Source: Eubacterium sp. (GTDB taxonomy: Bacteria > Bacillota > Clostridia > Lachnospirales > Lachnospiraceae). From it: DNA of 64,000 nt. The stretch spans positions 1-64,000 of the forward strand of contig JAILRB010000005.1 of assembly GCA_024698585.1 (NCBI GenBank), given 5' to 3'. Positions 1,744-36,389 of this stretch are shown piece by piece; the stretch's first letter is position 1, and each line of letters begins with the position of its first letter. The position numbers and the translations under genes are program-made. A model generated the notes under the pieces. The model was not told the origin of the DNA. It made no database searches and saw only the letters and a list, made by a program, of their open reading frames with translations.

Positions 1744-1909
1744 GTACCCTAGGATTAGGCTTTTTCGGATTTGCGGGGTACGAAAGTGGAAGAGAATTTT
1801 TTGGAGTGTACCCTAGGATTAGGATTTTTTTGAATTTCGGGGTACAGAAGAAAAAAACAAGAAAGATTTGTGTACCCTAAAAATGGCTTTTTCCAGATTT
1901 GCGGGGTAC
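1744..1909 (+). repeat. GTAC-ended repeat array, three 38-bp units at 64-bp period
   Basis: Units at 1744-1781, 1808-1845 and 1872-1909 are each exactly 38 bp. Each starts GTACCCTA, has a T-tract near its centre (about unit positions 17-24) and ends GGGGTAC. The unit starts are exactly 64 bp apart, leaving 26-bp A-rich spacers that are not alike. GTAC occurs at 1744, 1778, 1808, 1842, 1872 and 1906, an alternating 34/30 spacing. The array fills the gap between the proS terminator and the HAD gene. A second array of the same family lies at 36160-36389 in the opposite orientation. I know no named family with these properties. Confidence 0.9.
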
Positions 1910-1938
1910 GAAGCTTGAATAGGAAGGTGGATTAGGAT

Positions 1939-2586
1939 ATGAAAACAATAGTATTTGACATGGATGGAGTGATTTTCGATTCAGAAAGAGTGATTTTTGA
2001 GGAGTGGAAGGAACTATCGAAGAAGTATGGTTTTGAAAATATTGAAATTCCCTATTATAAGTGCATCGGAGTCAATGCAGCAACCACCCGAAAAATTATG
2101 TTGGATTTTTACGGAGAAGATTTTCCTTATGATGAATATTGCAGGGAACAGTCGCAGAAATATCATGAGGAATTTGATGGTGGACGGTTGCCGTTGAAAA
2201 AAGGCGTGGAAGAACTGTTGAAATATTTGAAAGAAGCAGGGTTCTTTGTGGCAATTGCATCTTCAACTCGTAGCGCATTGGTGGAGCAGCAGATTGTAGA
2301 TGCAGGACTTAGGCCATATTTTGACCGGATTGTTGGTGGAGATATGGTGGAGCGAAGTAAGCCGGAACCAGACATTTTTCTGAAAGCAATTGAGGGGCTT
2401 ACGGTGAAACCACAGGATGTTATGGTGATTGAAGACTCCTTTAATGGAATCCGGGCAGCTTTTCATGCGGGAATGATTCCGGTAATGGTGCCGGATATGA
2501 TTGAACCGGATGCAGAAATGAGAGAAAAGGCAGCCTTAATTCTGAATGATTTGTTAGAAGTGAAACGATATTTGGAGTGTAGATAA
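1939..2586 (+). CDS. HAD-superfamily hydrolase, beta-phosphoglucomutase/phosphatase-like
   Basis: A 215-residue cytoplasmic HAD subfamily IA protein. Motif I is FDMDGVIFDSE at the N-terminus (nucleophile Asp and general acid Asp in DMD). Motif II is near IASSTRSA, the motif III lysine is in RSKPEPDIF, and motif IV is VIEDSFNGIRAA. The alpha-helical cap between motifs I and II and the overall size fit sugar-phosphate phosphatases or phosphomutases. The substrate cannot be read from the sequence. An AGGAAGGTGG ribosome site precedes the ATG. The GTAC repeat array lies directly upstream, so its promoter may lie inside or beside that array. The stop codon is within a terminator hairpin. Confidence 0.88.
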   Translation: MKTIVFDMDGVIFDSERVIFEEWKELSKKYGFENIEIPYYKCIGVNAATTRKIMLDFYGEDFPYDEYCREQSQKYHEEFDGGRLPLKKGVEELLKYLKEAGFFVAIASSTRSALVEQQIVDAGLRPYFDRIVGGDMVERSKPEPDIFLKAIEGLTVKPQDVMVIEDSFNGIRAAFHAGMIPVMVPDMIEPDAEMREKAALILNDLLEVKRYLECR

Positions 2587-2603
2587 TTGACACTCCTTTT
2601 TTA
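2574..2603 (+). terminator. Terminator overlapping the stop of the HAD gene
   Basis: GGAGTGT (2574-2580) pairs with ACACTCC (2590-2596), followed by seven T. The stop codon is in the loop. The next promoter's -35 box overlaps the 3' arm. Confidence 0.85.
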
Positions 2604-2615
2604 TTATAGTAAAAT
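2587..2615 (+). promoter_or_regulatory. Sigma-A promoter for the Fur-family gene
   Basis: TTGACA (2587-2592), 17 bp, TAAAAT (2610-2615). The -35 box shares bases with the loop and 3' arm of the preceding terminator, so stop codon, terminator and promoter are packed into about 40 bp. Confidence 0.75.
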
Positions 2616-2670
2616 GAAAAAGATTTTCAAATTCTATCATTGTGTTGAAGAATAAATTTCGGAGGAGAAG

Positions 2671-3072
2671 ATGGCAGGAAAATATAAGACCAGACAGAAT
2701 GAAGTGATTAAGAAATGTCTGGAAGAAAATAAAGATGGATATGTTACAGTGCAGCAGGTGATGGATTATTTAAAGAGTCAGGAGATTTCCGTTGGGCTGA
2801 CAACGATTTACCGGCAGTTGGATCGATTGGTGGAAGAAGGGATTGTCACGAAGGTGAATGTGGAAGGAAAAGCAGGAGCTTGTTATCAATGGATGCCGGA
2901 GCAGGACGAACAGGATCTCATTTATATTCAGTGCGAGAAATGCGGTGAGGTTTCCACGATGGAATGTCATCATTTGGCAGAGTTGTATCACCATGTGGAA
3001 AGTGACCATCACTTCAAGGTGAATACTAAGAAGACGGTATTATATGGTCGATGCGATAAGTGCAATAAGTAA
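2671..3072 (+). CDS. Fur-family metal-responsive repressor (Zur-like by context)
   Basis: A 133-residue Fur/Zur/PerR-type regulator. It has an N-terminal winged helix with the recognition-helix segment GLTTIYRQLDRLVEEG. The C-terminal dimerisation half carries the structural zinc pairs CEKC and CDKC, and His-rich stretches (ECHH, YHHVESDHHF) supply sensory metal ligands. A GGAGGAG ribosome site precedes the ATG. The next gene, 11 nt downstream, is a zinc/manganese-type ABC ATPase, so a zinc-sensing (Zur) role is the most likely reading. PerR or Fur activity cannot be excluded from sequence alone. A clear promoter lies at 2587-2615. Confidence 0.88.
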   Translation: MAGKYKTRQNEVIKKCLEENKDGYVTVQQVMDYLKSQEISVGLTTIYRQLDRLVEEGIVTKVNVEGKAGACYQWMPEQDEQDLIYIQCEKCGEVSTMECHHLAELYHHVESDHHFKVNTKKTVLYGRCDKCNK

Positions 3073-3083
3073 GGTGAAGGACG

Positions 3084-3857
3084 ATGATTTTTAATTTTAA
3101 GAATGTAGGGTTAGGTTATGAAAATCTAGTGGTGGCAAAGGATTTGAACTTTTGCGTGAATCAGGGAGACTATGTGTGCATCGTGGGAGAAAACGGAGCA
3201 GGAAAGAGTACACTGATCAAAACTTTACTGGGATTGATTAAACCTTTGGATGGAACCATTGAAAAGAATATTAAAAAAGGAATCGGGTATCTTCCTCAGC
3301 AGACAGCGGTGCAAAGAGATTTTCCGGCCAGCGTCTGGGAGGTGGTTCTTTCGGGAACCTTAAGCGGAAGCAGGAAGATTCCTTTTCACACGAAAAAAGA
3401 TAAAGAACTGGCAATCAGCAACATGGAAAAAATGCATATCATGCCATTGAAGAAAAAATGCTATCGGGAGCTTTCCGGAGGACAGCAGCAAAGAGTTCTT
3501 TTGGCTAGGGCATTGTGTGCTACGGATGGGGTGTTGATTTTAGATGAGCCTACCACCGGGCTGGATCCGGCGGCAACCATGGAATTCTATGAGCAGATTA
3601 AGTCATTGAATGAAAAAGAAGGGGTAACCGTGATTATGGTTTCCCACGATATTGAAAATGTCATGGATTATGCAACCCATATTTTACACCTGAAACAGGA
3701 TGCCACCTTCTATGGTACGGTGGATGAATATAAAACGTCGAATGTTTCCAATATGTTTCTGGGAGATACGGTGCTTCACCGCATCCATCAGACGGATGAA
3801 AAGTCCAGCAAAGATGTGGCGGAAACCATTGATCGTTTTGTTGGAACAACGAAATAA
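3084..3857 (+). CDS. Metal-type ABC transporter ATP-binding protein (ZnuC/MntB-like), no permease beside it
   Basis: A 257-residue ABC ATPase with Walker A GENGAGKST, Q-loop region YLPQQT, signature LSGGQQQR, Walker B VLILDEPTTGLD and the H-loop histidine in MVSHD. It resembles the ATPase of zinc/manganese uptake systems, where it would energise a membrane permease fed by a lipoprotein. It is 11 nt after the Fur-family gene and almost certainly cotranscribed. Permease and binding-protein genes normally follow, but the next gene is ygiQ with its own promoter. The 79-bp gap shows no permease remnant that I can recognise. The partners may be elsewhere or may have been lost. Confidence 0.88.
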   Translation: MIFNFKNVGLGYENLVVAKDLNFCVNQGDYVCIVGENGAGKSTLIKTLLGLIKPLDGTIEKNIKKGIGYLPQQTAVQRDFPASVWEVVLSGTLSGSRKIPFHTKKDKELAISNMEKMHIMPLKKKCYRELSGGQQQRVLLARALCATDGVLILDEPTTGLDPAATMEFYEQIKSLNEKEGVTVIMVSHDIENVMDYATHILHLKQDATFYGTVDEYKTSNVSNMFLGDTVLHRIHQTDEKSSKDVAETIDRFVGTTK

Positions 3858-3887
3858 AAAAGTAAGGATTCCCTTGGGGGGATGCCG

Positions 3888-3916
3888 TTGACAAAGAAAT
3901 TAGATTAAGACATAAT
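3888..3916 (+). promoter_or_regulatory. Sigma-A promoter of ygiQ
   Basis: TTGACA (3888-3893), 17 bp, CATAAT (3911-3916). The predicted transcription start is near 3922-3924, just ahead of the ribosome site GAAGGAG (3924-3930). Confidence 0.8.
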
Positions 3917-3943
3917 GTACTGAGAAGGAGTGCATTATGTCTT
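3907..3943 (+). promoter_or_regulatory. 11-bp perfect dyad across the ygiQ -10 box and start codon (candidate operator)
   Basis: AAGACATAATG (3907-3917) and CATTATGTCTT (3933-3943) are exact reverse complements separated by 15 bp. The left arm contains the -10 box and the right arm contains the ATG of ygiQ. The left arm lies upstream of the expected transcription start, so it would not form an mRNA hairpin. A DNA operator is the simpler reading. Confidence 0.55.
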
Positions 3944-5910
3944 TTTTACCGATTTCAAAACAGGATATGAAGGAACAGGGAATCGAGCAACTTGATTTCG
4001 TGTATGTTATAGGGGATGCCTACGTGGATCATCCCTCTTTTGGTCATGCTATCATTGCCAGAGTGCTGCAGTCTCATGGTTATACGGTTGGTATTATTTC
4101 TCAGCCGGATTGGAAGGATGAGGAGAGTATCAATGCATTGGGAGAGCCACGACTGGCATTTCTTGTCATGGGAGGAAATATGGATTCCATGGTGAATCAC
4201 TACTATGTTTCCAAGAAACACCGTGGTACAGATGCGTATACCCCGGGAGGAGTTATTGGAAAGCGACCAGATCATGCTACGGTAGTGTATAGTAACCTGA
4301 TTCGAAGAACTTATCGAACGAAGCCGATTCTAATTGGAGGAATCGAGGCCAGTCTTCGAAGAATGGCACATTATGATTATTGGAGCAATAGCTTTAAGCG
4401 TTCTATTTTATTGGATAGTCAGGCGAATATGATTACTTATGGAATGGGTGAGAAATCCATTGTGCAGGTGGCAGATGCCCTGGCAAGTGGAATGGATATC
4501 AGCGATATTACATATATTCCGGGAACTGTGTTTAAAACAAAGAATCTGGATCTGGCATATGACCCAATTATTCTTCCATCCTATGACGAAATGAAGGAAG
4601 ATAAATTGCGTTATGCGGACAGCTTCCGGGTGCAGTCGGAAAATACGGATCCGTTTAATGGAAAGACTTTGGTGGAACCATACCCGAATGGTGTTTATGT
4701 GGTGCAGAATCCGCCACAGGAGCCAATGACCCGACAGGAAATGGATGATGTCTATGATCTTCCATATGAAAGAACATATCATCCGAGTTATGAAAAGGCA
4801 GGAGGCGTTCCGGCTATTCAGGAAATTCAGTTTTCCCTGATTAGCTGTCGTGGATGTTTTGGTGCCTGCAGTTTCTGTGCATTGACCTTCCATCAGGGAA
4901 GAATCATTCAGACCAGAAGCCATGAGTCCATTATTAAAGAAGCAAAGAAAATTATTGAGATGCCGAACTTCAAGGGATACATCCATGATGTGGGAGGGCC
5001 GACAGCGAACTTCTATCATCCGGCATGTAAGAAACAGTTGAAGTACGGTGTTTGTAAACATAAACAATGTCTGTGGCCGAAGCCATGTGAAAACCTGGAT
5101 ACGGATCACAGCGAATATTTGAAGCTATTAAGAAAACTGAGAGAATTGCCGAAAGTGAAAAAGGTATTTGTCCGTTCCGGAATCCGTTTCGATTATATTA
5201 TGGCGGACAAGGATAAGAACAGTACCTTCTTTAAGGAATTGGTAGACCATCACATTAGCGGGCAGTTAAAGGTTGCTCCGGAACATATTTCTGATGTGGT
5301 TTTGTCTTATATGGGAAAACCACAGAACTGTGTTTATGAAAAGTTCATTGAGAAATATTATAAGCTGAATGAGAAGGCGGGAAAGAAACAGTTCGTGGTT
5401 CCGTATCTCATGAGTTCTCATCCGGGTTCGACCATGAAAGAGGCTGTGAAGCTGGCCGAGTATTTGAGGGACATTGGATACAATCCGCAGCAGGTTCAGG
5501 ATTTTTATCCGACCCCGTCTACGATGTCCACCGTGATGTATTACACCGGCGTGGATCCTCGAACCATGAAGGAAGTTTATACTCCGAAGAATCCGCATGA
5601 GAAGGCAATGCAGCGTGCGTTGATGCAGTACCGGAATCCTGCCAATTATGAATTGGTGAAGGAAGCCCTTCACATTGCCGGTAGGGAGGATCTGATTGGA
5701 TTTGATAAGCAATGTCTCATTAAGCCGAGACAGATAAAAAATGAAAGAGGAAATTACCGAAAAAAATCAGCTAACAGTAGTAATACAATGAAGAAAAATT
5801 CCGGAAAAGGAAAATGTACCACCTTTAATACGGCTAAAAATAATGGAAAACACAGGAATGAAAAAAGAAATTCCTCAGGAAAAAAATCCGCAAGAGGAAA
5901 GAAAAGATAA
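3937..5910 (+). CDS. ygiQ: YgiQ-family radical SAM protein
   Basis: A 657-residue radical SAM protein. Its iron-sulfur cluster motif CFGACSFC provides Cys307, Cys311 and Cys314. The N-terminal half carries the conserved YgiQ block ([25 protein letters not shown]). The centre contains the family segment VRSGIRFDY and the C-terminal part [19 protein letters not shown]. The natural reaction of this widespread family is unknown to me. The last 50 residues are a Lys/Asn/Ser-rich tail outside the conserved domain, possibly nucleic-acid binding or simply low-complexity. Translation uses the ATG inside the dyad at 3907-3943. Confidence 0.93.
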
Positions 5911-5929
5911 AAGTGAAAGGGAAATGAAT

Positions 5930-8608
5930 ATGGGAGTAGGAAAGAAAAGCATCGCTTATGTGCTTTCGTTATGCCTAGTGATTAGTTGCATTGTTGCAAG
6001 TAAGCCACAGGTGAATAATGCGGTAGAGAGTACAACGGTTTATTTTTTGAATTCGAATCATTGGAATGAAATTTATGGCTATGCATATGTCAATGATGCA
6101 GGGGTTTCTGATAGTTGGCCGGGAACAAAGTCTACCAAAGCAACTCAGATGGGAGAGGGTTGGTATCAGGTCGTCATTCCTCGAAGTGCTTCAGCGGGAT
6201 TTAGTATCATTTTTCATGATGGAGGTTCAAATAGAGCAGAGGTTTATATTAACAATGATATAGCTACCTATGTGACAGCGGAGGCGAAGATTTATAGTTC
6301 AAAGAATGCAGCAGAATATGCAGTAGGTTTTTCAAATGAGGTTGAACCGGTAAAAAAAGATTATTATGTAGATACAACAGGCATTGGTGCAGAGTTGTCA
6401 TATACAACATATGAAGCAGAAAATGCCGAGACGAATGCCACGGCTTTAAAAGACAGTCGCAATTATCTCATTGATGTTCAGTCTGAAGCAAGTGGCAGAG
6501 AAGCTGTAAAATTGCAGAACACCGGAGATTATGTTGAGTTTGAATTAAAAAAACCGGCAAATGCAATGGTTTTAAGATATAGTATGCCGGACAGTGCTGA
6601 TGGAAAGGGAATTGATGCATCATTATCGCTATATGTGAATGGAAATAAATCAAAGGATATGACTTTGACCTCAAAGTATGCGTGGGTGTATGGTGCATAT
6701 CCTTATGACAATCAAGTTAGTGGCGGAAATGGTCATCGCTTTTTTGATGAATCACGCGGATTCTTTAAAGAAGGGACCTTAGCAGCAGGAACAAAAATAC
6801 GTTTACAAAAAGATGCATCCTGTAGTGCATCTTATTATATTATTGATTTTATCGAATGTGAAAATGTTTCCGCAAAGGAACGCCCGGAGAATAGTTTATC
6901 AATCACTGATTACGGGGCTGTAGCAGATGATGGAAAGGACGATTATGATGCCTTTTTGTCTTGTGTTCGGGCTGCGAAAAATCAGCGAAAGGAAGTTTGG
7001 ATTCCGGTAGGAACATTTCATTTGAAAGAAAAAAGAAATATGGTTGTTTCTAATGTTACCATCCGTGGTGCTGGAATGTGGTTTTCGAATTTGATTGGAT
7101 TAGGAGCGGCCTTTGATTATTCCGGAACATGCGGGTTTTATGATTTTTCAATGACAGGTCTGGCAGACCATCGATTAGACGCAGAGGATTTACCAGCGTT
7201 TGGGGGAACTTCAGCCAGCACAAATTGCGTCATTGAAAATATTTGGATGGAGCATGTTAAAGTCGGGGTATGGACATATGCAGCTGAGAACTTAACCATT
7301 CGTGGATGTCGAATCAGAAATACCTATGCGGATGGAATTAATCTTTGCAGTGGAAGTAGTGGAGCAAGAATTTATAATAATTCCGTGCGAAATACCGGCG
7401 ACGACGGAATCGCTATTTGGCCATGGCAGGGAAATTGTTACAATAATAAGATTTATAACAATACTGTGCAAATACCGACATTGGCAAATTGTATTGCAAT
7501 TTATGGTGGATATGGAAATGTTGTTTCTAATAATTATGTTACGGATACTGTAAACAATGGTGGTGGAATTTGTGTATCTAGTCAGTTTGATACGTCCGAT
7601 GGATTTTCCGGAACAATCCAGGTAGAGGGGAATGTTCTTGTCAGATGTGGAACACTGCATAGCGATTATAAATATAATATCGGTGCCATTTGGTTTTGGG
7701 TAACGAACCAAGAAATGAAAGCAGACTATCAGGTTACCAATAATACGATTATTGATTCGACCTATGAGGGAATTCTTTTTGATTGTTTTAACCAATTATC
7801 ACAGGTAACTGTTTCCCAAACGAAGATTTATGGACCACAAACAAATGGAATCGATGTTCGTGGGTATGGAACCACAGCGTTAGTATTCGATGACGTTGGG
7901 GTGGTAGATTATCAGGGTGCCCGGTTCAATAATGAAAACAGTAATTGTTCTGTTTCTTACTTGCATCAGGGGATATATGATGCAATCGCTCCGGAACCAC
8001 CGACTGAAATCGTCACCGAGACAACAACGGAAGAAATAACAGAGGCTGTCACGGAAAAGGAAGAACCGCAGATTTCTGAGCAAATAAGGATTGAAGGATA
8101 TCAGATTAGTACCACTGTGGAAGGAAGTCGTGTCATTGCCTCGGTTGAACCTGAAATAAATGGAAAAAAGGTAGCAGAATATGGTTTAATTTATGGTCTG
8201 GCGGTGTATAATGGAACAGTAACAGATTGGAAAGCACAGGACATGACCGTGGATTCCGATAATTACTTTGTAAAGGGATTTGACAGCAAAGGACTTGGTG
8301 TTCTGAAGGAACAATTTGGTGATTCTACCACGGCGACTTATTATAGTATGACCATGAAATTTGGTGCTCATTCCAAAGAAGCATATGAGGCGGATTATAG
8401 AGTACGAGGATATGCAAAGTTATCGGACGGAACCTATGTATATGGGAAAATTCAGTCCTATTCCGTTTTTCGGATTGCAAACTATCTTTATCAGCATCAA
8501 ATGATGCCTCGTGAGTCTGCATATAATTATTTGTATGATCATATATTATCAGTTGTGGATCCATCTTATGAAAAGATAGATTATGGATGGAGTTCGTTAG
8601 TTCAGTAA
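5930..8608 (+). CDS. Secreted multidomain beta-helix glycosidase, GH87 (alpha-1,3-glucanase)-like
   Basis: Start chosen at 5930 because a GAAAGGG site lies about 8 nt upstream; an in-frame ATG at 5843 would overlap ygiQ. The 892-residue product has a signal peptide (about 1-31). A CBM26-like starch/alpha-glucan-binding module follows (about 35-128, starting TTVYFLNSNHW), then a CBM35-like module opening YEAENAE (about 160-315). Next comes a right-handed parallel beta-helix (about 320-665) opening SITDYGAVADDGKDD. Its TYADGIN and NTGDDGIAIW turns hold Asp residues arranged like a GH87 active site. A Thr/Glu linker and an unassigned 190-residue C-terminal domain complete it. Likely role: extracellular hydrolysis of alpha-1,3/1,4-glucan. 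The GH87 call is from memory of the family and is moderate; a secreted beta-helix carbohydrate enzyme is near certain. Confidence 0.72.
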   Translation: MGVGKKSIAYVLSLCLVISCIVASKPQVNNAVESTTVYFLNSNHWNEIYGYAYVNDAGVSDSWPGTKSTKATQMGEGWYQVVIPRSASAGFSIIFHDGGSNRAEVYINNDIATYVTAEAKIYSSKNAAEYAVGFSNEVEPVKKDYYVDTTGIGAELSYTTYEAENAETNATALKDSRNYLIDVQSEASGREAVKLQNTGDYVEFELKKPANAMVLRYSMPDSADGKGIDASLSLYVNGNKSKDMTLTSKYAWVYGAYPYDNQVSGGNGHRFFDESRGFFKEGTLAAGTKIRLQKDASCSASYYIIDFIECENVSAKERPENSLSITDYGAVADDGKDDYDAFLSCVRAAKNQRKEVWIPVGTFHLKEKRNMVVSNVTIRGAGMWFSNLIGLGAAFDYSGTCGFYDFSMTGLADHRLDAEDLPAFGGTSASTNCVIENIWMEHVKVGVWTYAAENLTIRGCRIRNTYADGINLCSGSSGARIYNNSVRNTGDDGIAIWPWQGNCYNNKIYNNTVQIPTLANCIAIYGGYGNVVSNNYVTDTVNNGGGICVSSQFDTSDGFSGTIQVEGNVLVRCGTLHSDYKYNIGAIWFWVTNQEMKADYQVTNNTIIDSTYEGILFDCFNQLSQVTVSQTKIYGPQTNGIDVRGYGTTALVFDDVGVVDYQGARFNNENSNCSVSYLHQGIYDAIAPEPPTEIVTETTTEEITEAVTEKEEPQISEQIRIEGYQISTTVEGSRVIASVEPEINGKKVAEYGLIYGLAVYNGTVTDWKAQDMTVDSDNYFVKGFDSKGLGVLKEQFGDSTTATYYSMTMKFGAHSKEAYEADYRVRGYAKLSDGTYVYGKIQSYSVFRIANYLYQHQMMPRESAYNYLYDHILSVVDPSYEKIDYGWSSLVQ

Positions 8609-8678
8609 AGAAGTTAATGTGGATTATTTTAGGGGAAACTCTAAGGATAATATAATTAGAAATTAGGAGGAATTAAAA

Positions 8679-9116: not shown

Positions 9117-9147
9117 TAAAAAGCCAGGACAGAAAGGTGGGAGATTT

Positions 9148-26478: not shown

Positions 26479-26503
26479 AGCAGATGACTTCATTCCTTTT
26501 TTT
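26470..26503. terminator. Bidirectional terminator between the two SulP genes
   Basis: AAGGAATGAAG (26470-26480) pairs exactly with CTTCATTCCTT (26488-26498). T-runs lie on both strands. Confidence 0.92.
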
Positions 26504-28156: not shown

Positions 28157-28230
28157 CATAAACTCCATTCTTTTGCCTGAATCGGCTAGATTAAAAAAAT
28201 AAGAAAGTCCCGAGGGACAAGAACTTTTCG

Positions 28231-28258
28231 ATTATAGCACAGAGGTAGAAAAAATCAA
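28231..28258 (-). promoter_or_regulatory. Sigma-A promoter for the minus-strand SulP gene
   Basis: Minus strand: TTGATT (28258-28253), 16 bp, TATAAT (28236-28231). The leader holds a small GTCC/GGAC hairpin near 28207-28218 followed by a U-rich stretch. Confidence 0.72.
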
Positions 28259-28277
28259 GAGACAAAAGGTGAGTAGC

Positions 28278-29789: not shown

Positions 29790-29875
29790 ATGCTACTCCT
29801 TACCATGTTTTAACAGTTGTTAGTGTATCATAGAATCATATGAAAAAAAAGCGTAGCAAGGAAGAGGATTTTTAT

Positions 29876-29904
29876 TTGACATTCATAATTTCTTATAATA
29901 TAAT
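29876..29904 (+). promoter_or_regulatory. Sigma-A promoter of the aspS T-box leader
   Basis: TTGACA (29876-29881), 17 bp, TATAAT (29899-29904): consensus in both boxes. Confidence 0.92.
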
Positions 29905-30192
29905 CAGAAACGATAGCGATGACGAAGAGAAGTAGCCGTACTTATCGCTGACAGAGAGCAGGCGTTGGTGGAAGTCCTGTAGAATGAATTACGGTGAATA
30001 ACACTTCAGAGCTGTGAACTGAAAGAGAGTTTTCTTTAGTAGGGAATCCGTCATCTGCACGAGACGCAGAAGGTCTTTCATGAAGCGAAGACCGTGAGGG
30101 GCTGCATTTGCAGTAAATCAGGTGGTACCGCGGATTAGTATATTAGTACTGTTCGTCCTGAGATGATACATCTCGAGACGGGCAGTTTTTTT
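29905..30192 (+). ncRNA. T-box riboswitch with tRNA-Asn (AAC) specifier, upstream of aspS
   Basis: The T-box core AGGTGGTACCGCG is at 30120-30132. Stem I shows a K-turn region (AGCGATGA/AGAGCT), the lower pair GAAG (29924-29927) with CTTC (30004-30007), AGTA (29931-29934), and the upper pair GCCGTA (29935-29940) with TACGGT (29990-29995). The distal CAGAGAGC and GTTGGTGGAA segments are typical. The 3' side of the specifier loop reads GAATAACA, so the codon placed one base before the lower stem is AAC (30000-30002) followed by A. That is Asn; no GAC or GAT fits the slot. The terminator is 30148-30192 (10-bp stem, seven T). Confidence 0.9.
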
Positions 30193-30213
30193 CGTTTTGG
30201 CAATGAGCCGTGC

Positions 30214-30275
30214 ATTGCTGAATAGAAGAACTTTGCTTTGCACTTGTGGAAAGCAAAGTTCTTCTATTCAGCAAT
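30214..30275 (+). repeat. 26-bp perfect inverted repeat in the aspS leader
   Basis: Arms 30214-30239 and 30250-30275 are exact reverse complements with a 10-nt loop (30240-30249). It lies after the T-box terminator and before the aspS ribosome site, so it forms only in read-through mRNA. No T-run follows, so it is not an ordinary terminator. It may be a small mobile or BIME-like element. Confidence 0.92.
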
Positions 30276-30278
30276 ATA

Positions 30279-30424
30279 GGGCGAAGCCCGCGACGAAACA
30301 GACCGAAGGTCTGTGAGTTGCACGGCGAAGTGCAGGGACAGAAGACCGAAGGTCTGTGAGTTGCACGGCGAAGTACAAAAACAGAAGACCGAAGGTCTGA
30401 GAGTTGCACGGCGAAGTGCAAAGA
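30279..30424 (+). repeat. 43-bp tandem repeats made of GAA-loop hairpins in the aspS leader
   Basis: GACCGAAGGTC occurs at 30301, 30344 and 30387, and GCACGGCGAAGTGC (one base changed in copy 2) at 30320, 30363 and 30406: three units at exactly 43 bp. Each unit thus has two hairpins with GAA in the loop. A related GGGCGAAGCCC hairpin is at 30279-30289. With the 26-bp inverted repeat, this fills the space between T-box and aspS. Confidence 0.9.
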
Positions 30425-30467
30425 CTCATTCGAGATTAAATAGGTATAGAAATGAAAGGAGAAAACA

Positions 30468-32225
30468 ATGGACGTAAACACAAACAACATTTATCGTGAC
30501 GTAACAATGGATCAGCTTTCTGAAGCAAACGTTGGTCAGACTGTAAAAATTTCCGGTTGGATTGAAAATATTCGTGACCATGGTGGTGTTTCATTTATTG
30601 ACTTAAGAGACATGTATGGTGTGATGCAGGTAGTTATGCGTGACACAACTTTATTGGAAGGACTTAGTAAGGAAGATTGTATTTCTGTGGAAGGACCAAT
30701 TGAACACAGAGATGAAGAAACTTACAACCCTAAGATTCCTACCGGAACTATTGAATTAGAAGCAAAATCTGTAAAGGTTTTAGGTAAGGTTTACAGACAG
30801 CTTCCATTTGAAATCATGACTTCCAAGGAAACAAGAGAAGACGTTAGATTAAAATATCGTTACTTAGACCTTAGAAATGCAAAGGTACGTGATAACATGA
30901 TTTTCCGTTCCAATGTCATTTCATATCTTCGTCAGAAAATGACAGATTTAGGATTCCTGGAAATCCAGACACCGATTCTTTGTGCTTCTTCTCCGGAAGG
31001 TGCCAGAGACTACATTGTACCTAGTAGAAAATTCAAAGGAAAATTCTATGCATTGCCACAGGCACCACAGCAGTACAAGCAGTTACTGATGGTTTCCGGC
31101 TTTGACAAGTATTTCCAGATTGCTCCATGTTTCAGAGATGAAGATGCCAGAGCAGACCGTTCCCCAGGGGAATTCTATCAGTTAGACTTTGAAATGAGCT
31201 TTGCTACACAGGAAGACGTTTTCCGTGTAGGGGAAGAAGTATTAGCAGATACATTTAATAAATTTGCGCCGGAGGGATATGAAGTGACTCAGGCACCATT
31301 CCCTGTTATCAGCTTTAAGGAAGCAATGTTAAAGTATGGTACCGATAAGCCGGATCTTAGAAACCCATTGGAAATCATTGACGTAACTGATTTCTTCCAG
31401 AGATGTACTTTCAAGCCTTTCCATGGAAAGACTGTTCGTGCTATCGTTGTAAATCAGAAATTATCCAAGGGGCAGCATGAAAAATTGTTGAAGTTTGCCC
31501 AGAGCATCGGTATGGGTGGACTGGGATACTTAGAAGTATTAGAAGATGGTTCTTACAAGGGACCAATTGATAAATTTATTCCGGATGACATGAAGGATGA
31601 AATCAGAGAACAGGCAAACTTAAAGCCAATCGATACCATCTTCTTCATTGCCGACAATGAAAAGAATGCATCTCTTTATGCCGGACAGATTCGTACAGCT
31701 TTAGGAGAAAGACTTGATTTAATTCAGAAGAACCAGTATAAGTTCTGCTATATCAATGATTTCCCAATGTATGAATACGACAATGAAACAAAGCAGATGA
31801 TTTTCACACACAATCCGTTCTCTATGCCACAGGGTGGTTTAGAAGCATTGGAAACAAAGAATCCGGAAGAGATTCTTGCATACCAGTATGATATCGTATG
31901 TAATGGTGTGGAATTGTCTTCAGGTGCGGTAAGAAACCACGATATGGAAATCATGGTAAAGGCATTTGAAATTGCAGGATACACCGAAGACGATCTGAAA
32001 GAAAAATTCGGAGCGCTTTACAATGCATTCCAGTTTGGTGCACCACCTCATGCAGGTATGGCACCGGGTGTTGACCGTATGATTATGCTTCTTCGTGATG
32101 AAGAAAACATTCGTGAAGTAATTCCGTTCCCGATGAATGGTAACGCGCAGGATTTGATGTGTGGAGCACCGGGAGAAGTTACAGAACAGCAGCTTCGTGA
32201 AGTACACATTAAAGTGCGCGCATAA
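30468..32225 (+). CDS. aspS: Aspartyl-tRNA synthetase, probably non-discriminating
   Basis: A 585-residue bacterial-type AspRS. An N-terminal OB-fold anticodon domain (about 1-110) is followed by the class II catalytic core with motif 2 FRDEDARADRSPGEFYQLD. A GAD insertion sits at about 300-410, and motif 3 is GMAPGVDRMIML. AAAGGAG precedes the ATG. Control is by the T-box at 29905-30192, whose specifier reads as Asn. With gatCAB at 55.1-58.4 kb this suggests that the enzyme also charges tRNA-Asn with Asp for later amidation. The discriminating/non-discriminating call is inferred from control and context, not from enzyme residues. Confidence 0.96.
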   Translation: MDVNTNNIYRDVTMDQLSEANVGQTVKISGWIENIRDHGGVSFIDLRDMYGVMQVVMRDTTLLEGLSKEDCISVEGPIEHRDEETYNPKIPTGTIELEAKSVKVLGKVYRQLPFEIMTSKETREDVRLKYRYLDLRNAKVRDNMIFRSNVISYLRQKMTDLGFLEIQTPILCASSPEGARDYIVPSRKFKGKFYALPQAPQQYKQLLMVSGFDKYFQIAPCFRDEDARADRSPGEFYQLDFEMSFATQEDVFRVGEEVLADTFNKFAPEGYEVTQAPFPVISFKEAMLKYGTDKPDLRNPLEIIDVTDFFQRCTFKPFHGKTVRAIVVNQKLSKGQHEKLLKFAQSIGMGGLGYLEVLEDGSYKGPIDKFIPDDMKDEIREQANLKPIDTIFFIADNEKNASLYAGQIRTALGERLDLIQKNQYKFCYINDFPMYEYDNETKQMIFTHNPFSMPQGGLEALETKNPEEILAYQYDIVCNGVELSSGAVRNHDMEIMVKAFEIAGYTEDDLKEKFGALYNAFQFGAPPHAGMAPGVDRMIMLLRDEENIREVIPFPMNGNAQDLMCGAPGEVTEQQLREVHIKVRA

Positions 32226-32241
32226 TAAGAAGGAGGACTTT

Positions 32242-32346
32242 ATGGCTATTATAAATGTTGCAATGTTGGTAGCAGTATTTGGTGTGTTTGTTCTTCTTGG
32301 GATAATTGTCGTCATTGCGCTGACAATCGGAAATAAAGATAAATAA
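32242..32346 (+). CDS. 34-residue single-helix membrane protein
   Basis: A short gene starting with ATG 32242, with AAGGAGG (32230-32236) 5 nt upstream. The product MAIINVAMLVAVFGV... is one hydrophobic helix (about residues 3-28) ending in a polar GNKDK tail. It begins 16 nt after the aspS stop, and a strong terminator follows at 32357. The good ribosome site and its place between aspS and the terminator argue that it is real. No family recognised; the T-box would control it along with aspS. Confidence 0.72.
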   Translation: MAIINVAMLVAVFGVFVLLGIIVVIALTIGNKDK

Positions 32347-32356
32347 ATGAAAAGAT

Positions 32357-32390
32357 AAGGCTTTGCATTGTGTAAGGCCTTTCTTTTTTT
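32357..32390 (+). terminator. Terminator after aspS and the small membrane protein
   Basis: AAGGCTTTGCA (32357-32367) pairs with TGTAAGGCCTT (32371-32381) using two wobble pairs, then T-run. Confidence 0.85.
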
Positions 32391-32408
32391 GAACAATCAA
32401 AAAGTTTT

Positions 32409-32516
32409 TGATGTGGCTGAAACGCCCATTCTATCAGGGTTGCAACTGCCGGTTGACAAATTGATAAGTCAACTTGGTGGTGCGCAACCGGAGAAAATGC
32501 TATGTTTTCTACATCA
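32409..32516 (+). ncRNA. Unassigned structured RNA candidate
   Basis: Outer stem TGATGT (32409-32414) with ACATCA (32511-32516) encloses a long hairpin and a short one. The long one has GGTTGC (32438-32443) with GCAACC (32484-32489), CTGCC with GGTGG through two G-U pairs, and GTTGAC (32452-32457) with GTCAAC (32468-32473). The short one is AGAAAA (32492-32497) with TTTTCT (32505-32510). The G-U pairs work only for a plus-strand RNA. It matches no riboswitch that I know, and no promoter is evident directly upstream. The next gene is an XRE regulator. Confidence 0.5.
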
Positions 32517-32565
32517 GCTGATCCATTTGGAAATTCTTGATTGAAAAAGTTTCCGGATGAGAACC

Positions 32566-32594
32566 TTGCAGGTGTGAAACCTGTTTCGTATAAT
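32566..32594 (+). promoter_or_regulatory. Sigma-A promoter of the XRE gene with a dyad in the spacer
   Basis: TTGCAG (32566-32571), 17 bp, TATAAT (32589-32594). CAGGT (32569-32573) and ACCTG (32579-32583) form a 5-5-5 dyad between the boxes, a plausible autoregulatory operator. Confidence 0.78.
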
Positions 32595-32616
32595 ATTAGA
32601 AGATGGAGGGAAGACT

Positions 32617-33606
32617 ATGAATTTAGCAGATAAGATTATTTCATTAAGAAAACAAAAAGGTTGGTCTCAGGAAGAACTGGCAGCCCAGATGGATGTGTCC
32701 AGACAGTCTGTATCAAAATGGGAAAGTGGAGCCAGTGTGCCGGATATTGATAAAATTTTATTATTAAGTAAAATTTTCGGGATTACCACCGATTACTTAT
32801 TAAAAGATGACGGAGAAGTGGAGCAGGAAATCAGAACAGAGATTTCAGGAGAGAAAGAAACGCCGAAGCGTTTTGTGTCAAAAGAGGAAGCAAAAGCGTT
32901 TCTTGAATTACAAAAACAGTCCGCGAAAAAAATTGCCTTTGGTGTTTGGCTTTGCATCATGTCTCCGGTAACGCTTCTCGTTTTGTTGGGATTCAGTCAG
33001 AAACCATATCAGTATCTGGGTGAAAAGATGGCAGTACTGGGGGGACTGAGCGCATTGTTTGTAATTGTGACGATTGCGGTAGCGCTCTTTGTCATTACAG
33101 GATTGTCCATGAGTAAGTATGAGTATCTTCAAAAAGAAGAAATCCTGTTAGATCGGGAAATGGAAAGAGAAGTCGTGGAAGAAAGTGAAGCGTTTCTTCC
33201 AGCCTTTGCAAGAAATATTGCCATCGGCGTAGGATTATGCATTGTTTCCGTGATCCCGGTGGTGGTGTTAGGTGTTTTGGAAAAAGAAGCCATGACTGTT
33301 ATGGCAGTAGGACTCCTATTATTCTTGGTAGCTTGTGCCGTATTTTTATTTGTTCGTAGTGGAATGAGAAAAAGTGCCTACGATCAGTTGTTGCAACGAG
33401 AGGGTTTCACCGTAGAACGGAAACAGACAAACAATGAGATGGAAAGTTGGGCCGGGGTTTACTGGATGGTTGTTACAGCAGCGTATCTTGTAATCAGTTT
33501 TGTTTGGAACAGTTGGAGAATCAGCTGGTTAATCTGGCCGATTGCAGGAATGCTCTACGGTGCAATTACATTGATTGTGGAACAACGATTAAGAAAAAAG
33601 TTATAA
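32617..33606 (+). CDS. XRE-family regulator with multi-helix membrane domain
   Basis: A 329-residue protein. The N-terminal HTH_3 domain (about 1-66) has WSQEELAAQMDVSRQSVSKWESG and ends FGITTDYLL. A linker (about 68-105) follows, then about six membrane helices in two similar pairs (KKIAFGVWLCIMSPVTLL and RNIAIGVGLCIVSVIPVV start equivalent segments) and a final pair. Such membrane-tethered XRE proteins are common in Clostridia and are thought to sense envelope or small-molecule signals; the target is unknown. A dyad between its own -35 and -10 suggests autoregulation. Confidence 0.88.
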   Translation: MNLADKIISLRKQKGWSQEELAAQMDVSRQSVSKWESGASVPDIDKILLLSKIFGITTDYLLKDDGEVEQEIRTEISGEKETPKRFVSKEEAKAFLELQKQSAKKIAFGVWLCIMSPVTLLVLLGFSQKPYQYLGEKMAVLGGLSALFVIVTIAVALFVITGLSMSKYEYLQKEEILLDREMEREVVEESEAFLPAFARNIAIGVGLCIVSVIPVVVLGVLEKEAMTVMAVGLLLFLVACAVFLFVRSGMRKSAYDQLLQREGFTVERKQTNNEMESWAGVYWMVVTAAYLVISFVWNSWRISWLIWPIAGMLYGAITLIVEQRLRKKL

Positions 33607-33619
33607 AAGGTTTTTGAAA

Positions 33620-33648
33620 AAGGTCGAAAGAAACTTTCGACCTTTTTT
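33620..33648 (+). terminator. Terminator after the membrane XRE gene
   Basis: AAGGTCGAAAG (33620-33630) pairs exactly with CTTTCGACCTT (33634-33644), loop AAA, then T-run. Confidence 0.92.
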
Positions 33649-33671
33649 GGATGTTCCGGGGATTTGTGTGG

Positions 33672-33677
33672 TATAAT
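33672..33677 (+). promoter_or_regulatory. Extended -10 promoter for uvrX-yolD-gph
   Basis: TATAAT preceded by TGG (TGN extension), 29 nt before the ATG at 33706. There is no clear -35 box, and I see no LexA box of the GAAC-N4-GTTC kind. Confidence 0.55.
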
Positions 33678-33705
33678 AACAGCATTCGCCAGAAAGGAGG
33701 GTGAA

Positions 33706-35076
33706 ATGAAAGAAAAAACATATATTGCCATTGACTTAAAATCATTTTATGCCTCCGTGGAGTGCGTGGAACGAGGTTTGAATCCACTGACCACAAATCT
33801 AGTGGTGGCAGATGCTTCCAGAACATCAAAGACAATCTGCCTGGCAGTAACGCCGGCATTGAAAAAGTACGGGTTATCCGGAAGAAGCAGATTGTTTGAA
33901 GTCGAGCAGAAAGTAAAAGAAATCAAACAAAGTACGGGACGGGAAATTGAATATATTACGGCAGTTCCCCGGATGGCGTTGTACATCAAATATTCGGCCT
34001 TTATTTATAGCATTTATTTAAAGTATGTCAGCCCGGAGGATATTCATGTGTATAGTATCGATGAAGTGTTTATGGATGTGACCCATTATCTTTCGCTATA
34101 CCAGATGAGTGCAAAAGAACTGGCCAAAAAGATTGTTTTGGATGTGTACCGAAGTACGGGAATTACCGCTACGGTTGGACTGGGAACGAATCTCTATCTG
34201 TGTAAGATTGCAATGGACATTGGGGCAAAGCATATCCTGCCGGATGAAGATGGAGTTCGCATTGCGGAATTAGACGAAATGACTTTCCGTGAAAAAATGT
34301 GGGACCATCAGCCACTGACAGATTTTTGGAGAACCGGTGCGGGAATCACGAAGAAGTTGGCTCAGCACGGCATGTACACGATGGGAGATGTGGCACGGGT
34401 GTCTCTCCAAAACGAGGACTGGTTATACAAGATTTTCGGGATTGATGCAGAAATTCTCATTGATCATGCCTGGGGATATGAGCCTTGCACCATTGCGGAT
34501 ATTAAGGCGTATCGCCCGAAGAGTAACAGCCTAGGCTCCGGACAGGTCTTGCAGGAACCGTATCAAAATGAAAAAGCGCGAATTGTGGTTCGGGAAATGA
34601 CGGAACTGTTAGTGCTTAATCTGGTGGACAAGGATTTGGTCACTGAGTCCCTGACGCTTCATATTGGTTATGACCGGATTAACGTGGATGAGGGAAATTA
34701 CAGTCGGGAAATCAAAACAGACTATTACGGAAGAACAGTGCCAAAGCCGGCACATGGCACGGCAAATCTAGGGGCTCCGTCCTCATCCACATCGGAAATT
34801 GTAGAGGCAGTTCTTCAGTTGTTTGATCAGATTACCGACCCTTCCTTGTATATCCGACGGATTAATCTTTCAGCCAACAATGTGATGCCACGAGGATTTG
34901 AACAACTAAATATTTTTTCGAATCCGGAACAATTGGAAAAAGAGCGTAAGATGCAGAAGGCAATGCTGGCGATTCACAGACGATTCGGAAAGAACGCAAT
35001 TTTAAAGGGAACCAATTTAGAAGAAGGGGCAACCACCGTAGAACGAAATCAGCAGATTGGAGGGCATAAGGCATGA
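33706..35076 (+). CDS. Y-family DNA polymerase, UvrX/YqjW (UmuC-like)
   Basis: A 456-residue translesion polymerase. The palm motifs are YIAIDLKSFYASVECVE (metal-binding Asp) and VYSIDEVFMDV (catalytic Asp-Glu). Finger, thumb and little-finger regions follow at normal length. The form matches B. subtilis YqjW/UvrX rather than DinB. Start at 33706 follows AGGAGGGTGAA; the upstream ATG at 33664 has no site and would precede the promoter. The stop overlaps the yolD start (ATGA), the standard UvrX-YolD pairing, which supports the assignment. Confidence 0.92.
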   Translation: MKEKTYIAIDLKSFYASVECVERGLNPLTTNLVVADASRTSKTICLAVTPALKKYGLSGRSRLFEVEQKVKEIKQSTGREIEYITAVPRMALYIKYSAFIYSIYLKYVSPEDIHVYSIDEVFMDVTHYLSLYQMSAKELAKKIVLDVYRSTGITATVGLGTNLYLCKIAMDIGAKHILPDEDGVRIAELDEMTFREKMWDHQPLTDFWRTGAGITKKLAQHGMYTMGDVARVSLQNEDWLYKIFGIDAEILIDHAWGYEPCTIADIKAYRPKSNSLGSGQVLQEPYQNEKARIVVREMTELLVLNLVDKDLVTESLTLHIGYDRINVDEGNYSREIKTDYYGRTVPKPAHGTANLGAPSSSTSEIVEAVLQLFDQITDPSLYIRRINLSANNVMPRGFEQLNIFSNPEQLEKERKMQKAMLAIHRRFGKNAILKGTNLEEGATTVERNQQIGGHKA

Positions 35077-35486
35077 GCAAAGAGTATCAGGATATCCTCC
35101 ATAAAGAATGGAGAGGCACTGTGGGACACAGACCAATGCCTATGGAAGAACGGGCAAAAATTTTTCTGCCATTCGCAGCGCTGAAAGGTTATGAGGAAGC
35201 AATTGCAGAAAAAAAGCGAATCACGGTAGAGAAAATAAATTTGTCGGAGGAAATGAAGGAGGTGCTGGATCAGCAGTTTCAGAAAGTGCTTCGGCAGTTG
35301 GAACAAAAACAACATCCCATGGTCACGGTCATCTATTTTGAAAAGGATAAGAATCGACCGGGGGAAGGGTTTTATCTGAAACTTACGGGAATGGTTAGCC
35401 GATTGGATGTCCAGTCCCGATTCATTCAGGTGGTAAATACAAAAATCAGTTTTGAAAATATAAGAAGTTTTTCTTTGGAAAAGTAG
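35073..35486 (+). CDS. YolD-like protein
   Basis: A 137-residue YolD-family protein. It starts in the 4-bp overlap with the polymerase gene. The central YTE-like positions are recognisable in the RPMPMEERAKIFLPFAALKGYEEAI segment, and the C-terminal beta part (GMVSRLDVQSRFIQVVNTKISFENI) matches the YolD domain that regulates or assists UmuC-like polymerases. The exact activity is unknown; partnership with the upstream polymerase is inferred from family context. Confidence 0.88.
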   Translation: MSKEYQDILHKEWRGTVGHRPMPMEERAKIFLPFAALKGYEEAIAEKKRITVEKINLSEEMKEVLDQQFQKVLRQLEQKQHPMVTVIYFEKDKNRPGEGFYLKLTGMVSRLDVQSRFIQVVNTKISFENIRSFSLEK

Positions 35487-35499
35487 AAGGAGCAGAGAA

Positions 35500-36153
35500 A
35501 TGTATCAGGCAGTAATTTTTGACTTAGACGGAACGTTATTAAATACCATTGACGACTTGGCAAACGCCGTGCGATTTGTTCAACGGAAGTTTGGTTGGGC
35601 GGAAGATTCCACAGAAGTCGTGCAGCAGCATGTTGGAAACGGAATTCGGAATCTTATAATCCGTTCAACTCCGGAGGGCGAGGAGAATCCATTATTCGAG
35701 GACGCTTTTCTTTCTTTTAAAGAATACTATCAGCAGCACTGTGAAGAACAGACAGACTTATATCCGGGAATTCGGGAATTGTTGGAAACTTTGAAAAGAA
35801 AGAATATTAAGATGGCAATTGTCTCTAATAAGGCACACCCTGCCGTTCTGAAACTTCACGATACATATTTCAAAGACTATCTGGATGTGGTCTATGGAGA
35901 AAATGAAGATGCCGGGATTCAGAAAAAGCCGGCTCCGGACATGGTAAAACTGGCAATGGAACGTTTAGGCGTCACAGCGTCAGAAACCGTTTATGTAGGC
36001 GATTCTGATGTGGATAAGGCTACTGCAGATAATTCCGGATTGGATTGCATCTTATGCGAATGGGGATTCCGGGAATTATCGTTATTAAAGAGCCTAAAGC
36101 CCAAAGCAATCATCGCAGAGCCGTTGGAATTGATAAAATTAGTGCAAGTTTAG
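35500..36153 (+). CDS. gph: HAD-family phosphoglycolate phosphatase-like protein
   Basis: A 217-residue HAD IA hydrolase. Motif I is VIFDLDGTLLNTIDDLANAV, motif II is AIVSNKAH, the motif III lysine is in KKPAPDMV, and motif IV is VYVGDSDVDKATADNSG. The cap and length fit Gph, which hydrolyses 2-phosphoglycolate, a product of DNA end repair; that fits the DNA-repair neighbours. GAAGGAG precedes the ATG, and the gap from yolD is 13 nt, so it is likely in the same operon. A GTAC repeat array begins 7 nt after the stop. Confidence 0.88.
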   Translation: MYQAVIFDLDGTLLNTIDDLANAVRFVQRKFGWAEDSTEVVQQHVGNGIRNLIIRSTPEGEENPLFEDAFLSFKEYYQQHCEEQTDLYPGIRELLETLKRKNIKMAIVSNKAHPAVLKLHDTYFKDYLDVVYGENEDAGIQKKPAPDMVKLAMERLGVTASETVYVGDSDVDKATADNSGLDCILCEWGFRELSLLKSLKPKAIIAEPLELIKLVQV

Positions 36154-36159
36154 GGCGTC

Positions 36160-36389
36160 GTACCTTGAGATGAGTAAAAAGTTTGGAAGTAAGGTACAGT
36201 TTCGAAGGCAAAAAAATTATGGTGTACCTTGAGATGAGTAAAAAGTTTGGAAATAAGGTACAGTTTCGAAGGCGAAAAAATTATGGTGTACCTTGAAAAG
36301 TGGAAAAAAGAAGTAATTAAGGTACAAAGGGACATATTTAGAATTTTTGCTGTACCTTACAAATTTAAAAAAGTCAAAAGTTATGGTTC
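36160..36389 (-). repeat. GTAC-ended repeat array, three intact and one degenerate 38-bp unit at 64-bp period
   Basis: Units at 36160-36197, 36224-36261 and 36288-36325 are 38 bp, start GTACCTT and end AAGGTAC. A fourth at 36352-36389 keeps the left end but ends GGTTC. Starts are exactly 64 bp apart; GTAC recurs at 34/30-bp alternation. Read on the minus strand each unit is GTACCTTA, a T-tract at unit positions 17-22, then GGTAC, matching the array at 1744-1909. Spacers 1 and 2 differ by one base; spacer 3 is unrelated. This fills most of a 359-bp gene-free stretch; the remainder (36390-36468) shows only three GCAC-containing words. Confidence 0.9.

Follow-up and report, generated by a model that had tools for sequence, protein, structure and literature searches.

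Two tandem arrays in the window, the 64,000-nucleotide stretch of Eubacterium sp. DNA analysed here, belong to a dispersed family of extragenic arrays in one genus of Lachnospiraceae, with regular units and even spacing, a non-random gene context, and a half-site that differs between species. With a confidence that stops just short of even, we read these arrays as phased binding sites of a putative dimeric architectural protein whose specificity would have changed between species. In this mechanism, each unit would be an inverted pair of half-sites (approximately 5′-AGYGTACCYTR) around a T-tract, with units near a whole number of helical turns apart; a dimeric (or tetrameric) protein that recognises a specific DNA sequence would occupy the half-sites on one helix face and read the T-tract as narrow or stiff DNA. 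Adjacent dimers would then co-operate along the array to give a wrapped or bridged nucleoprotein patch, and such patches at gene ends would probably act as topological or transcriptional insulators. We infer the binding protein, its co-operative binding and the insulating role. A serious rival, in which the repeat is selfish and serves no host function, is weighed below.

Anatomy of the arrays and statistics of the unit

The features of the window arrays are listed by position.

1711..1738, + strand: hairpin and T-run, terminator-like by eye, 3′ of the proline--tRNA ligase gene (11-1693)
1744..1781, + strand: array 1, unit 1, 38 bp, GTACCCTA...CGGGGTAC, T-tract on the + strand
1782..1807, + strand: array 1, 26-bp spacer
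1808..1845, + strand: array 1, unit 2
1846..1871, + strand: array 1, 26-bp spacer
1872..1909, + strand: array 1, unit 3, ending 29 bp ahead of the start codon of a HAD-family gene (1939-2586)
36160..36197, − strand: array 2, unit, T-tract on the − strand, 6 bp past the stop codon of a HAD-family gene (35500-36153)
36198..36223, − strand: array 2, 26-bp spacer
36224..36261, − strand: array 2, unit
36262..36287, − strand: array 2, 26-bp spacer
36288..36325, − strand: array 2, unit
36326..36351, − strand: array 2, 26-bp spacer
36352..36389, − strand: array 2, degenerate fourth (end) unit with one half-site intact and the other reading GGTTC

Array 1 begins right behind the hairpin and T-run, and the T-rich strand is + in array 1 and − in array 2. 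Read on opposite strands, the units of the two arrays align without gaps, bearing out the proposal of an earlier note that they are one family in opposite orientation; the ends, length and T-tract, named there as the constrained parts, are conserved among units. The 26-bp spacers place GTAC at intervals of 34, 30, 34 and 30 bp, a tighter arrangement than that note stated; it had also overlooked the period of 64 bp, the elements at array ends and the change of half-site from one species to another. Its prediction of many genomic copies held, as many loci beyond these two were found: the window arrays are two of 15 collected in the window genome (G000), the 15 being those reached from the exact lattice, and the arrays of G008, drawn from the same collection, are a lower bound. 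Profile matches numbered 100 in G000, 79 in G002 and 70 in G008.

The 38-bp unit has the consensus GTACCYTR...YARGGTAC (one version brackets the Y, GTACC(Y)TR) and repeats each 64 or 65 bp, a period found for 134 of 135 distances in four species, with unit length fixed. The lattice GTACC-28-GGTAC-26-GTACC matched G000 40 times on the forward and 39 times on the reverse strand, compared to 0 for a reversed control. When the spacing was loosened to 20–36, the excess almost disappeared (67 versus 53), and exact spacing is thus the special property; the window arrays are not a chance occurrence. Four genomes supplied 58 non-redundant units, of which 43 had a central A/T run of at least four, whereas shuffled interiors gave a mean of 13.6 and a maximum of 26 in 2000 shuffles; units lacking the tract (15 of 58) are therefore not as frequent as units with it. 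Unit interiors are further constrained in being one-sided in pyrimidines (0.371 versus 0.169 expected), with T-rich positions at 11–13, 18–23 and 27–29 when units are oriented by fit.

An intrinsic bend, one of two explanations offered in the earlier note, was not supported. Helical phasing of AAA/TTT tracts was present in G022 (10.44 bp, a level reached in 0 of 300 shuffles) and absent from G000 (10.67 bp, reached in 93% of shuffles) and G019 (10.57 bp, 59%), and we rejected an intrinsic phased bend in G000. Its absence from these two genomes also counts against the architectural reading. A cruder test gave a 10.5-bp signal in G000 and G019 (z 3.5 each) that was lost under a control preserving the tandem period, whereas the G022 signal persisted with that control.

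The two half-sites of a unit vary independently of each other, which fits DNA contacts rather than base pairing. This bears on a further rival reading, in which the units would work at the RNA level as 3′ hairpins, stabilising the message or terminating transcription. The five palindromic end bases can pair, z-scores for the folding of ten units ranged from 0.0 to −3.8 and were at most −2.6 in four of the five window units, and the coding strand is the A-rich one at 8 of the 9 arrays between tandem genes in G000 and at all 4 clear ones in G022. These last counts apply to tandem arrays and so omit convergent ones (6 of 15 in G000), as well as two of six G022 tandem arrays of unclear orientation, one each way; a looser pooled count over five genomes gave 15 opposite and 2 same. 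However, pairs beyond the five end pairs, which are nearly invariant and hence uninformative on covariation, do not covary (84.3% paired versus 84.6% shuffled; score 0.096 versus 0.103), and there was no Rfam match at the window arrays. With no covariation above shuffles, the pair tests leave the hairpin unsupported, and we consider an RNA role highly improbable.

Variants, turnover and mobility in related genomes

G022, of the same genus, carries GTACCCCR units with a 94-bp period, and six other species carry 41-bp units with the half-site TTACAT...ATGTAA, mostly at 74–75 bp and some at 64. Periods of 64 and 74 bp occur within a single array in G011 and G017, a step of approximately one turn. 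TTACAT units number 92 to 210 in G018, G019 and G021; the G019 units inspected had no clear central tract (4 of 10), a point against the architectural reading. The periods fall near 6, 7 and 9 helical turns; the evidence provided by three such classes is modest (~0.03 by rough reckoning). When 23 genomes of the genus were searched for both words, arrays were found in 11 and neither word formed arrays in 12; each genome had arrays of one word only, and the word differs between neighbouring clades, suggesting a trans-acting reader.

Beyond the genus, a scan of 397 family genomes including G000 and G022 found no match in the other 395 under stricter filters, with the best 14 candidates per genome scored, such that diverged arrays could be missed. 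Scanning the whole collection with the exact GTACC lattice, which is blind to the G022 and TTACAT types and may omit the window's own genome, returned 13 stretches, 12 from two MAGs and one from Rhabdobacter that we take to be chance. Viral contigs contained no match to the exact 64-bp or 94-bp GTACC lattice patterns, and on this basis we rejected a phage origin of the GTACC types.

At orthologous loci, presence is patchy and arrays turn over. The proS locus of G002 has the hairpin but no array, and several orthologous arrays have diverged beyond their flanks (for example L080, 80.4% versus 91–93%; L079, 73.7% versus 83.1% for the flank on the side with a long match); hence no single array looks indispensable. 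By contrast, G000 and G008 share 97.5% identity over array L075/L066, compared to 89% and 92% over its 1.5-kb flanks, which favours the architectural reading.

Patchy presence and turnover are what a selfish or neutral repeat would produce, that is, a REP/BIME-like or MITE-like dispersed repeat whose arrays are recognition sites of a copying or moving enzyme, which spreads, turns over by tandem duplication and lies 3′ of genes as insertion elsewhere is selected against. Conserved array ends also favour it. GCAACATAYTGTATG stands at one end of some GTACC arrays. In G019, a conserved cap unit occurs in 11 of 17 stretches, some sharing a left flank with a terminator-like hairpin, and a few arrays have by eye TIR-like GGGACTGTAAAAAAGT ends. 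Inspection by eye of the flanks of at least 35 GTACC arrays revealed a stretch resembling GGGACTGTAAAAAAGT in one flank of L067, and neither terminal inverted repeats nor target duplications were noticed in GTACC species. Of the places where the element GCAACATANTGTATG occurs (at most one mismatch), those in or beside arrays make up 7 of 8 for G022, 2 of 3 for both G002 and G008, and at least 1 of 5 for G000; array-free genomes have 0 to 2 places, as do controls, and the link to arrays is suggestive. Near-identical arrays in G013 sit inside longer duplicated segments and are thus uninformative on the array's own mobility; we set them aside as mobility evidence.

Several observations nevertheless count against a selfish repeat. 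The proS array of G000, compared to the empty site of G002, showed no clean target-site duplication by eye at this single diverged site. The earlier note had raised a co-occurring transposase or DNA-binding protein; the 48 neighbour proteins scanned (28 in G000, 10 in G022 and 10 in G019) included no transposase. No protein that binds the arrays was identified either, which counts against the architectural reading, although the trans factor could be encoded anywhere in the genome. Several of the neighbours belong to ordinary regulator types (HTH_3, sigma, Fur, Spo0A_C, ArsR), with no type recurring, and the HAD genes that flank both window arrays were rejected as partners because neighbours of other arrays are unrelated. 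The RAYT family PF01797 does not track arrays: it scored above cut-off in G000, G013, G014, G019 and G020 (fragments in G014 and G019), weakly in array-bearing G007, and had no match in array-bearing G002, G008, G011, G017, G018, G021 and G022. Its absence from many array-bearing genomes led us to reject RAYT as the partner. Finally, mobility needs neither exact spacing nor a T-tract, and one array (L075/L066) is conserved above its flanks. A selfish repeat is, in our judgement, possible but less likely than not; it would then be an extragenic repeat family without a covarying hairpin or RAYT, widening that class.

Returning to architectural sites, a chromosome-wide system that keeps its layout of inverted half-sites, near whole-turn period and position at gene ends while the word is rewritten throughout a genome's arrays between close species (GTACC versus TTACAT, with GTACCCC in another branch) seems to us somewhat unlikely. 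In eukaryotes, centromeres and PRDM9 exemplify fast co-evolution of DNA-binding proteins with repeat sites, and the arrays would be a bacterial counterpart if the architectural reading is true. If one protein reads them, they would form a natural series of code change in chromosome-wide sites among close relatives, make joint change of a DNA-binding protein and many targets testable, and imply a nucleoid or insulator system not yet described.

Gene context and chromosomal placement

Arrays are placed 3′ of genes, either where two genes converge or after the leading member of a tandem pair, and 0 of 45 counted in G000, G022 and G019 (genes from a simple ORF caller) lie between divergent genes. 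Convergent context applied to 6 of 15 arrays versus 5 of 74 other gaps in G000 (p 0.0024), to 8 of 14 versus 5 of 38 in G022 (p 0.0026; Fisher tests computed without G002, G007 and G008), and to 8 of 16 arrays in G019. Gene context is non-random, as the earlier note had wondered. The G022 count comprises 14 arrays with at least three units, excluding isolated units elsewhere; at least 18 arrays were fetched for G019 and 16 counted, two of L274 being excluded, and for those at L279 and L281 one neighbour lies over 2.7 kb off, which makes their context uncertain. L144 was convergent by one ORF caller and tandem by another; L077, first called divergent, was set by hand to ++ as the + gene L077:5081-5512 had been masked; and L076 was added by hand with its orientation taken from profile matches.

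The same note asked about strand and position relative to replication. Strand bias is suggestive, with 8 of 9 clearly oriented arrays agreeing on one single-contig chromosome (5 of 14 unclear and excluded; p 0.039), whereas placement relative to the origin was not significant for 14 arrays in G022 (KS p 0.10, with the GC skew of sampled stretches used to estimate origin and terminus), and we dropped origin-proximal placement. G022 orientations were scored by a profile built from the other species.

Because the arrays lie downstream of genes and, among those counted, not between divergent ones, the patches formed by an architectural protein would probably be insulators, topological or transcriptional, at gene ends. 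A 3′-end distribution also accords with a selfish repeat; PMC3733652 places REP elements in extragenic positions downstream of genes, and gives the same distribution for extragenic repeats without known host function. Downstream and convergent location, together with regular tandem spacing, would likewise suit arrays to which gyrase or a topoisomerase binds and removes positive supercoils where genes end. E. coli BIME-2 is such a gyrase-binding array. Gyrase is conserved, whereas the half-site differs between close species, and we judge gyrase sites improbable.

Comparison with known systems

In the open literature, we found no paper describing these arrays. CRISPR arrays have a regular repeat-spacer layout, which the present arrays share, with a constant repeat and variable spacers, which they do not: here unit ends alone are conserved between arrays, and both interiors and spacers, though similar inside any one array, vary from array to array. 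Iteron and partition-site arrays (plasmid origins, parS clusters) are tandem, helically spaced protein sites, as these putatively are, but the 15 collected arrays are scattered over one genome, and the neighbours scanned included no gene for replication or partition. MITEs and non-autonomous insertion sequences are similarly dispersed, with conserved ends (as in part of the G019 arrays) and presence-absence at orthologous sites, whereas we noticed by eye neither TIRs nor target duplications in the GTACC species, and the body is a tandem, binding-site-like array. REP/BIME elements (GTAG and CGTC superfamilies) and REPINs resemble the arrays in being short, high-copy, extragenic, arranged in inverted pairs and located 3′ of genes (PMC3733652). 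The arrays differ in having no covarying hairpin, no RAYT correlation and no GTAG or CGTC tag, neither of which occurs in the unit consensus, and they are set apart by a period near whole helical turns and a half-site that changes between close species.

The array lattice and its distribution

Re-examination of the two window arrays, in which tandem units carry inverted half-sites (GTACC...GGTAC) around a T-tract, confirmed their coordinates, unit length and opposite T-rich strands as first described. These arrays and other elements in the window are as follows.

1744-1909, T-rich strand +: array 1, three 38-bp units
36160-36389, T-rich strand -: array 2, three intact units and one degenerate unit
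29910-30163, + strand: T-box leader matching Rfam RF00230 at 102 bits, 5' of an ORF at 30468-32225
30300-30422: tandem repeat of a 43-bp unit (2.9 copies, 92% matches), in the gap that separates the T-box from the following gene
63449-63668: tandem repeat of a 93-bp unit (2.4 copies, 99% matches), close to the window end; its consensus contains GTAC without GTACC

In both arrays, the 38-bp unit and 26-bp spacer are exact, with GTAC spacing alternating between 34 and 30 bp. The pattern GTACC-28-GGTAC-26-GTACC had 40 forward and 39 reverse matches in G000, the window's own genome, and none in a reversed control. When the spacing was loosened, the control nearly equaled the real count (53 compared to 67 matches); thus, the improbable feature is the regular lattice rather than the GTACC word itself.

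Arrays seeded from exact lattice matches numbered at least 35, with 15 in G000 and 10, 3, and at least 7 in the congeneric genomes G002, G007, and G008, respectively. Allowing up to two end mismatches, 155 of 203 units were 38 bp long, 39-bp units occurred in some G007 and G008 arrays, and start-to-start distances were 64 bp (100), 65 bp (34), or 63 bp (1). The consensus of 58 aligned, oriented, non-redundant units approximates AAGTGTACCYTR ... TTT ... TTTTYY ... TTY ... YARGGTACACY. A profile built from 50 of these units, with up to 150 candidates scored in each of 23 genomes of the genus, matched 100 times in G000, 79 in G002, 70 in G008, 47 in G022, 21 in G007, and once each in G011, G014, and G017, with no matches among the candidates scored in the other 15. 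The 15 arrays and 100 profile matches in G000 bear out the earlier note's prediction of many copies, and the profile found many loci across the genus beyond the two in the window. A family-wide profile search with strict filters had no matches in 395 other genomes from 333 other genera. Among 84,980 species genomes, the exact lattice occurred only in two MAGs that we take to be rumen genomes (Eubacterium sp. Tb.RUG.99 and Lachnospiraceae RUG11188) and in one Rhabdobacter stretch; viral contigs matched neither the 64-bp nor the 94-bp GTACC lattice.

Unit design and helical spacing

A central A/T run of at least 4 was present in 43 of the 58 non-redundant units, compared to an average of 13.6 and a maximum of 26 in 2000 interior shuffles, in keeping with the T-tract conservation claimed previously, and the interior was one-sided in pyrimidines (0.371 vs 0.169 expected). 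The run lies at the same place in G022 units (positions 18-19 in 8 of 10 non-redundant units); units of G019, which have different ends (see below), lack this placement, no single position having a run in more than 4 of 10 units. The intrinsic bend suggested by the earlier note fared less well: because helical phasing of AAA/TTT runs was confined to G022, a built-in bend is not a common principle of the arrays.

We found no sign of RNA pairing of the units. Standard pairs filled 84.3% of cells at the 8 end pairs, compared to 84.6% after shuffling, and covariation at these pairs did not exceed that of shuffles (0.096 vs 0.103), the five outer pairs being near-invariant and hence uninformative. 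Ten units folded singly gave z-scores of 0.0 to -3.8, as palindromic ends would produce, and Rfam had no match at the window arrays.

At 10.5 bp per turn, the periods observed in the genus correspond to 6.1 (64 bp), 7.05-7.14 (74/75 bp), and 8.95 (94 bp) turns, and G011 and G017 mix 64 and 74 bp inside single arrays. Near whole-turn periods favor side-by-side binding on one helix face, although three period classes make this evidence modest.

A second word and turnover at orthologous loci

G022, a single contig of 2,856,089 bp, carries GTACCCCR...YGGGGTAC arrays with a 94-bp period, seen in 33 of the 35 spacings between adjacent exact units; the other 2 are 93 bp. By eye, a second pseudo-palindrome resembling CAACATANTGTATG is present in many of its 56-bp spacers, and a similar word stands at one end of the arrays in stretches L059, L060, L065, L066, L073, L075, and L082; judged partly by eye, it lies within the period in G022 but is confined to array ends in species with the 64-bp period.

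G021 and G018 carry a tandem array 3' of proS with other ends, TTACATG...ATATGTAA, and a period of 74-75 bp. Counts of TTACAT-29-ATGTAA were 210 in G019, 121 in G018, 92 in G021, 28 in G011, 24 in G013 (partly from duplicated longer segments), and 22 in G017, compared to 0-2 in the other 17 genomes of the genus (background values of 0, 2, 0, 1, and 0 in G000, G002, G007, G008, and G022) and 0-3 in a reversed control. These six TTACAT genomes had no exact GTACC lattice, and the single profile matches in G011 and G017 were weak. Similar longer segments with array units mid-segment occur at several G013 sites (L283, L286, L287, L289, and L291) and are likely a duplicated locus family. In G019, 46 of 47 distances between neighboring exact 41-bp units were 74 bp, a few other distances occurred where units depart from consensus, and 11 of 17 stretches had a conserved cap unit. 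A similar terminator-type hairpin (AGAACCTGCATCCGC...GCGGATGCAGGTTCT) lies left of the G019 arrays in L267, L268, L273, L275, and L277-L280, as if transferred with them.

In a tree of three housekeeping proteins from 22 genomes, G018 and G021 grouped with the GTACC clade (split from the rest with support of 87), and G011, G013, G017, and G019 grouped with G022, G014, and G020 with weak support (50 and 39). By this topology, either the word switched two or more times or both words are ancient. TTACC-starting units within GTACC arrays (8 of 58) hint at a possible route between the words, and we infer from layout, rather than from sequence, that the two families are homologous.

The infB-rbfA gap holds an array in G000 and G008, a degenerate array in G002, and none in G007, and is short (18 to 142 bp) in the remaining matched genomes. 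This gap in L098 (G017) and L100 (G013) contains another long palindromic repeat, TTCAATCAAAAACTACGG.... The proS locus has 3, 5, and 7 units, whose interiors differ, in G000, G007, and G008 and none in G002, despite 97-99% identity over the C-terminal 263 residues of the protein encoded alongside. At most of the remaining orthologous loci, array divergence equals or exceeds that of the flanks; the L075/L066 array (G000/G008) is better kept than its flanks (97.5% vs 89% and 92%), and the L082 array slightly so (96% vs 90-94%). Arrays come, go, and are rebuilt, and end words and spacing persist. A selfish repeat acted on by a copying or moving enzyme, the main rival explanation and one we consider serious but less likely than not, accounts equally for this turnover and for the end caps.

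Gene context and comparison with known repeats

The G000 arrays lay in 6 convergent, 9 tandem, and 0 divergent gaps of 15, compared to 5 convergent and 12 divergent among 74 other gaps in the same stretches (p = 0.0024 and 0.21, respectively); in G022, 8 of 14 were convergent and 0 divergent, compared to 5 and 10 of 38 (p = 0.0026 and 0.046), with two hand-assigned rows included in these counts. Among the G019 arrays listed, 8 of 16 were convergent and 0 divergent. Gene context is thus non-random, with a convergent excess in both tested genomes. Between same-direction neighbors, 8 of 9 G000 arrays (window array 1 is the exception) and all 4 G022 arrays of clear orientation had the T-rich strand opposite the coding strand. 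Relative to replication in G022, the T-rich strand opposed the leading strand in 8 of the 9 arrays of clear orientation, three of which are clustered. Array neighbors scanned were unrelated housekeeping, regulatory, or unknown genes, and the co-occurring transposase envisaged earlier was not among them. In G000 (C13, L073:5551-6345, + strand), a 264-aa protein starts 23 bp behind an array; it had no Pfam, NCBIfam, or PHROG match, and its C-terminal part may resemble a PD-(D/E)XK nuclease.

The single array word per genome, independent half-sites, and near whole-turn spacing, together with close species that differ in word yet keep the layout, suggest a trans-acting reader. The reading we favor, with confidence just short of even, is a putative dimeric architectural protein that would bind arrays 3' of genes, coating or wrapping them.

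REP/BIME repeats share genomic placement and inverted design with these arrays (PMC3733652, PMC3116915). The covarying hairpin, tag, and RAYT link of REP/BIME elements were each tested and had no counterpart here, and we therefore regard the arrays as resembling REPs in their distribution rather than as true REPs.
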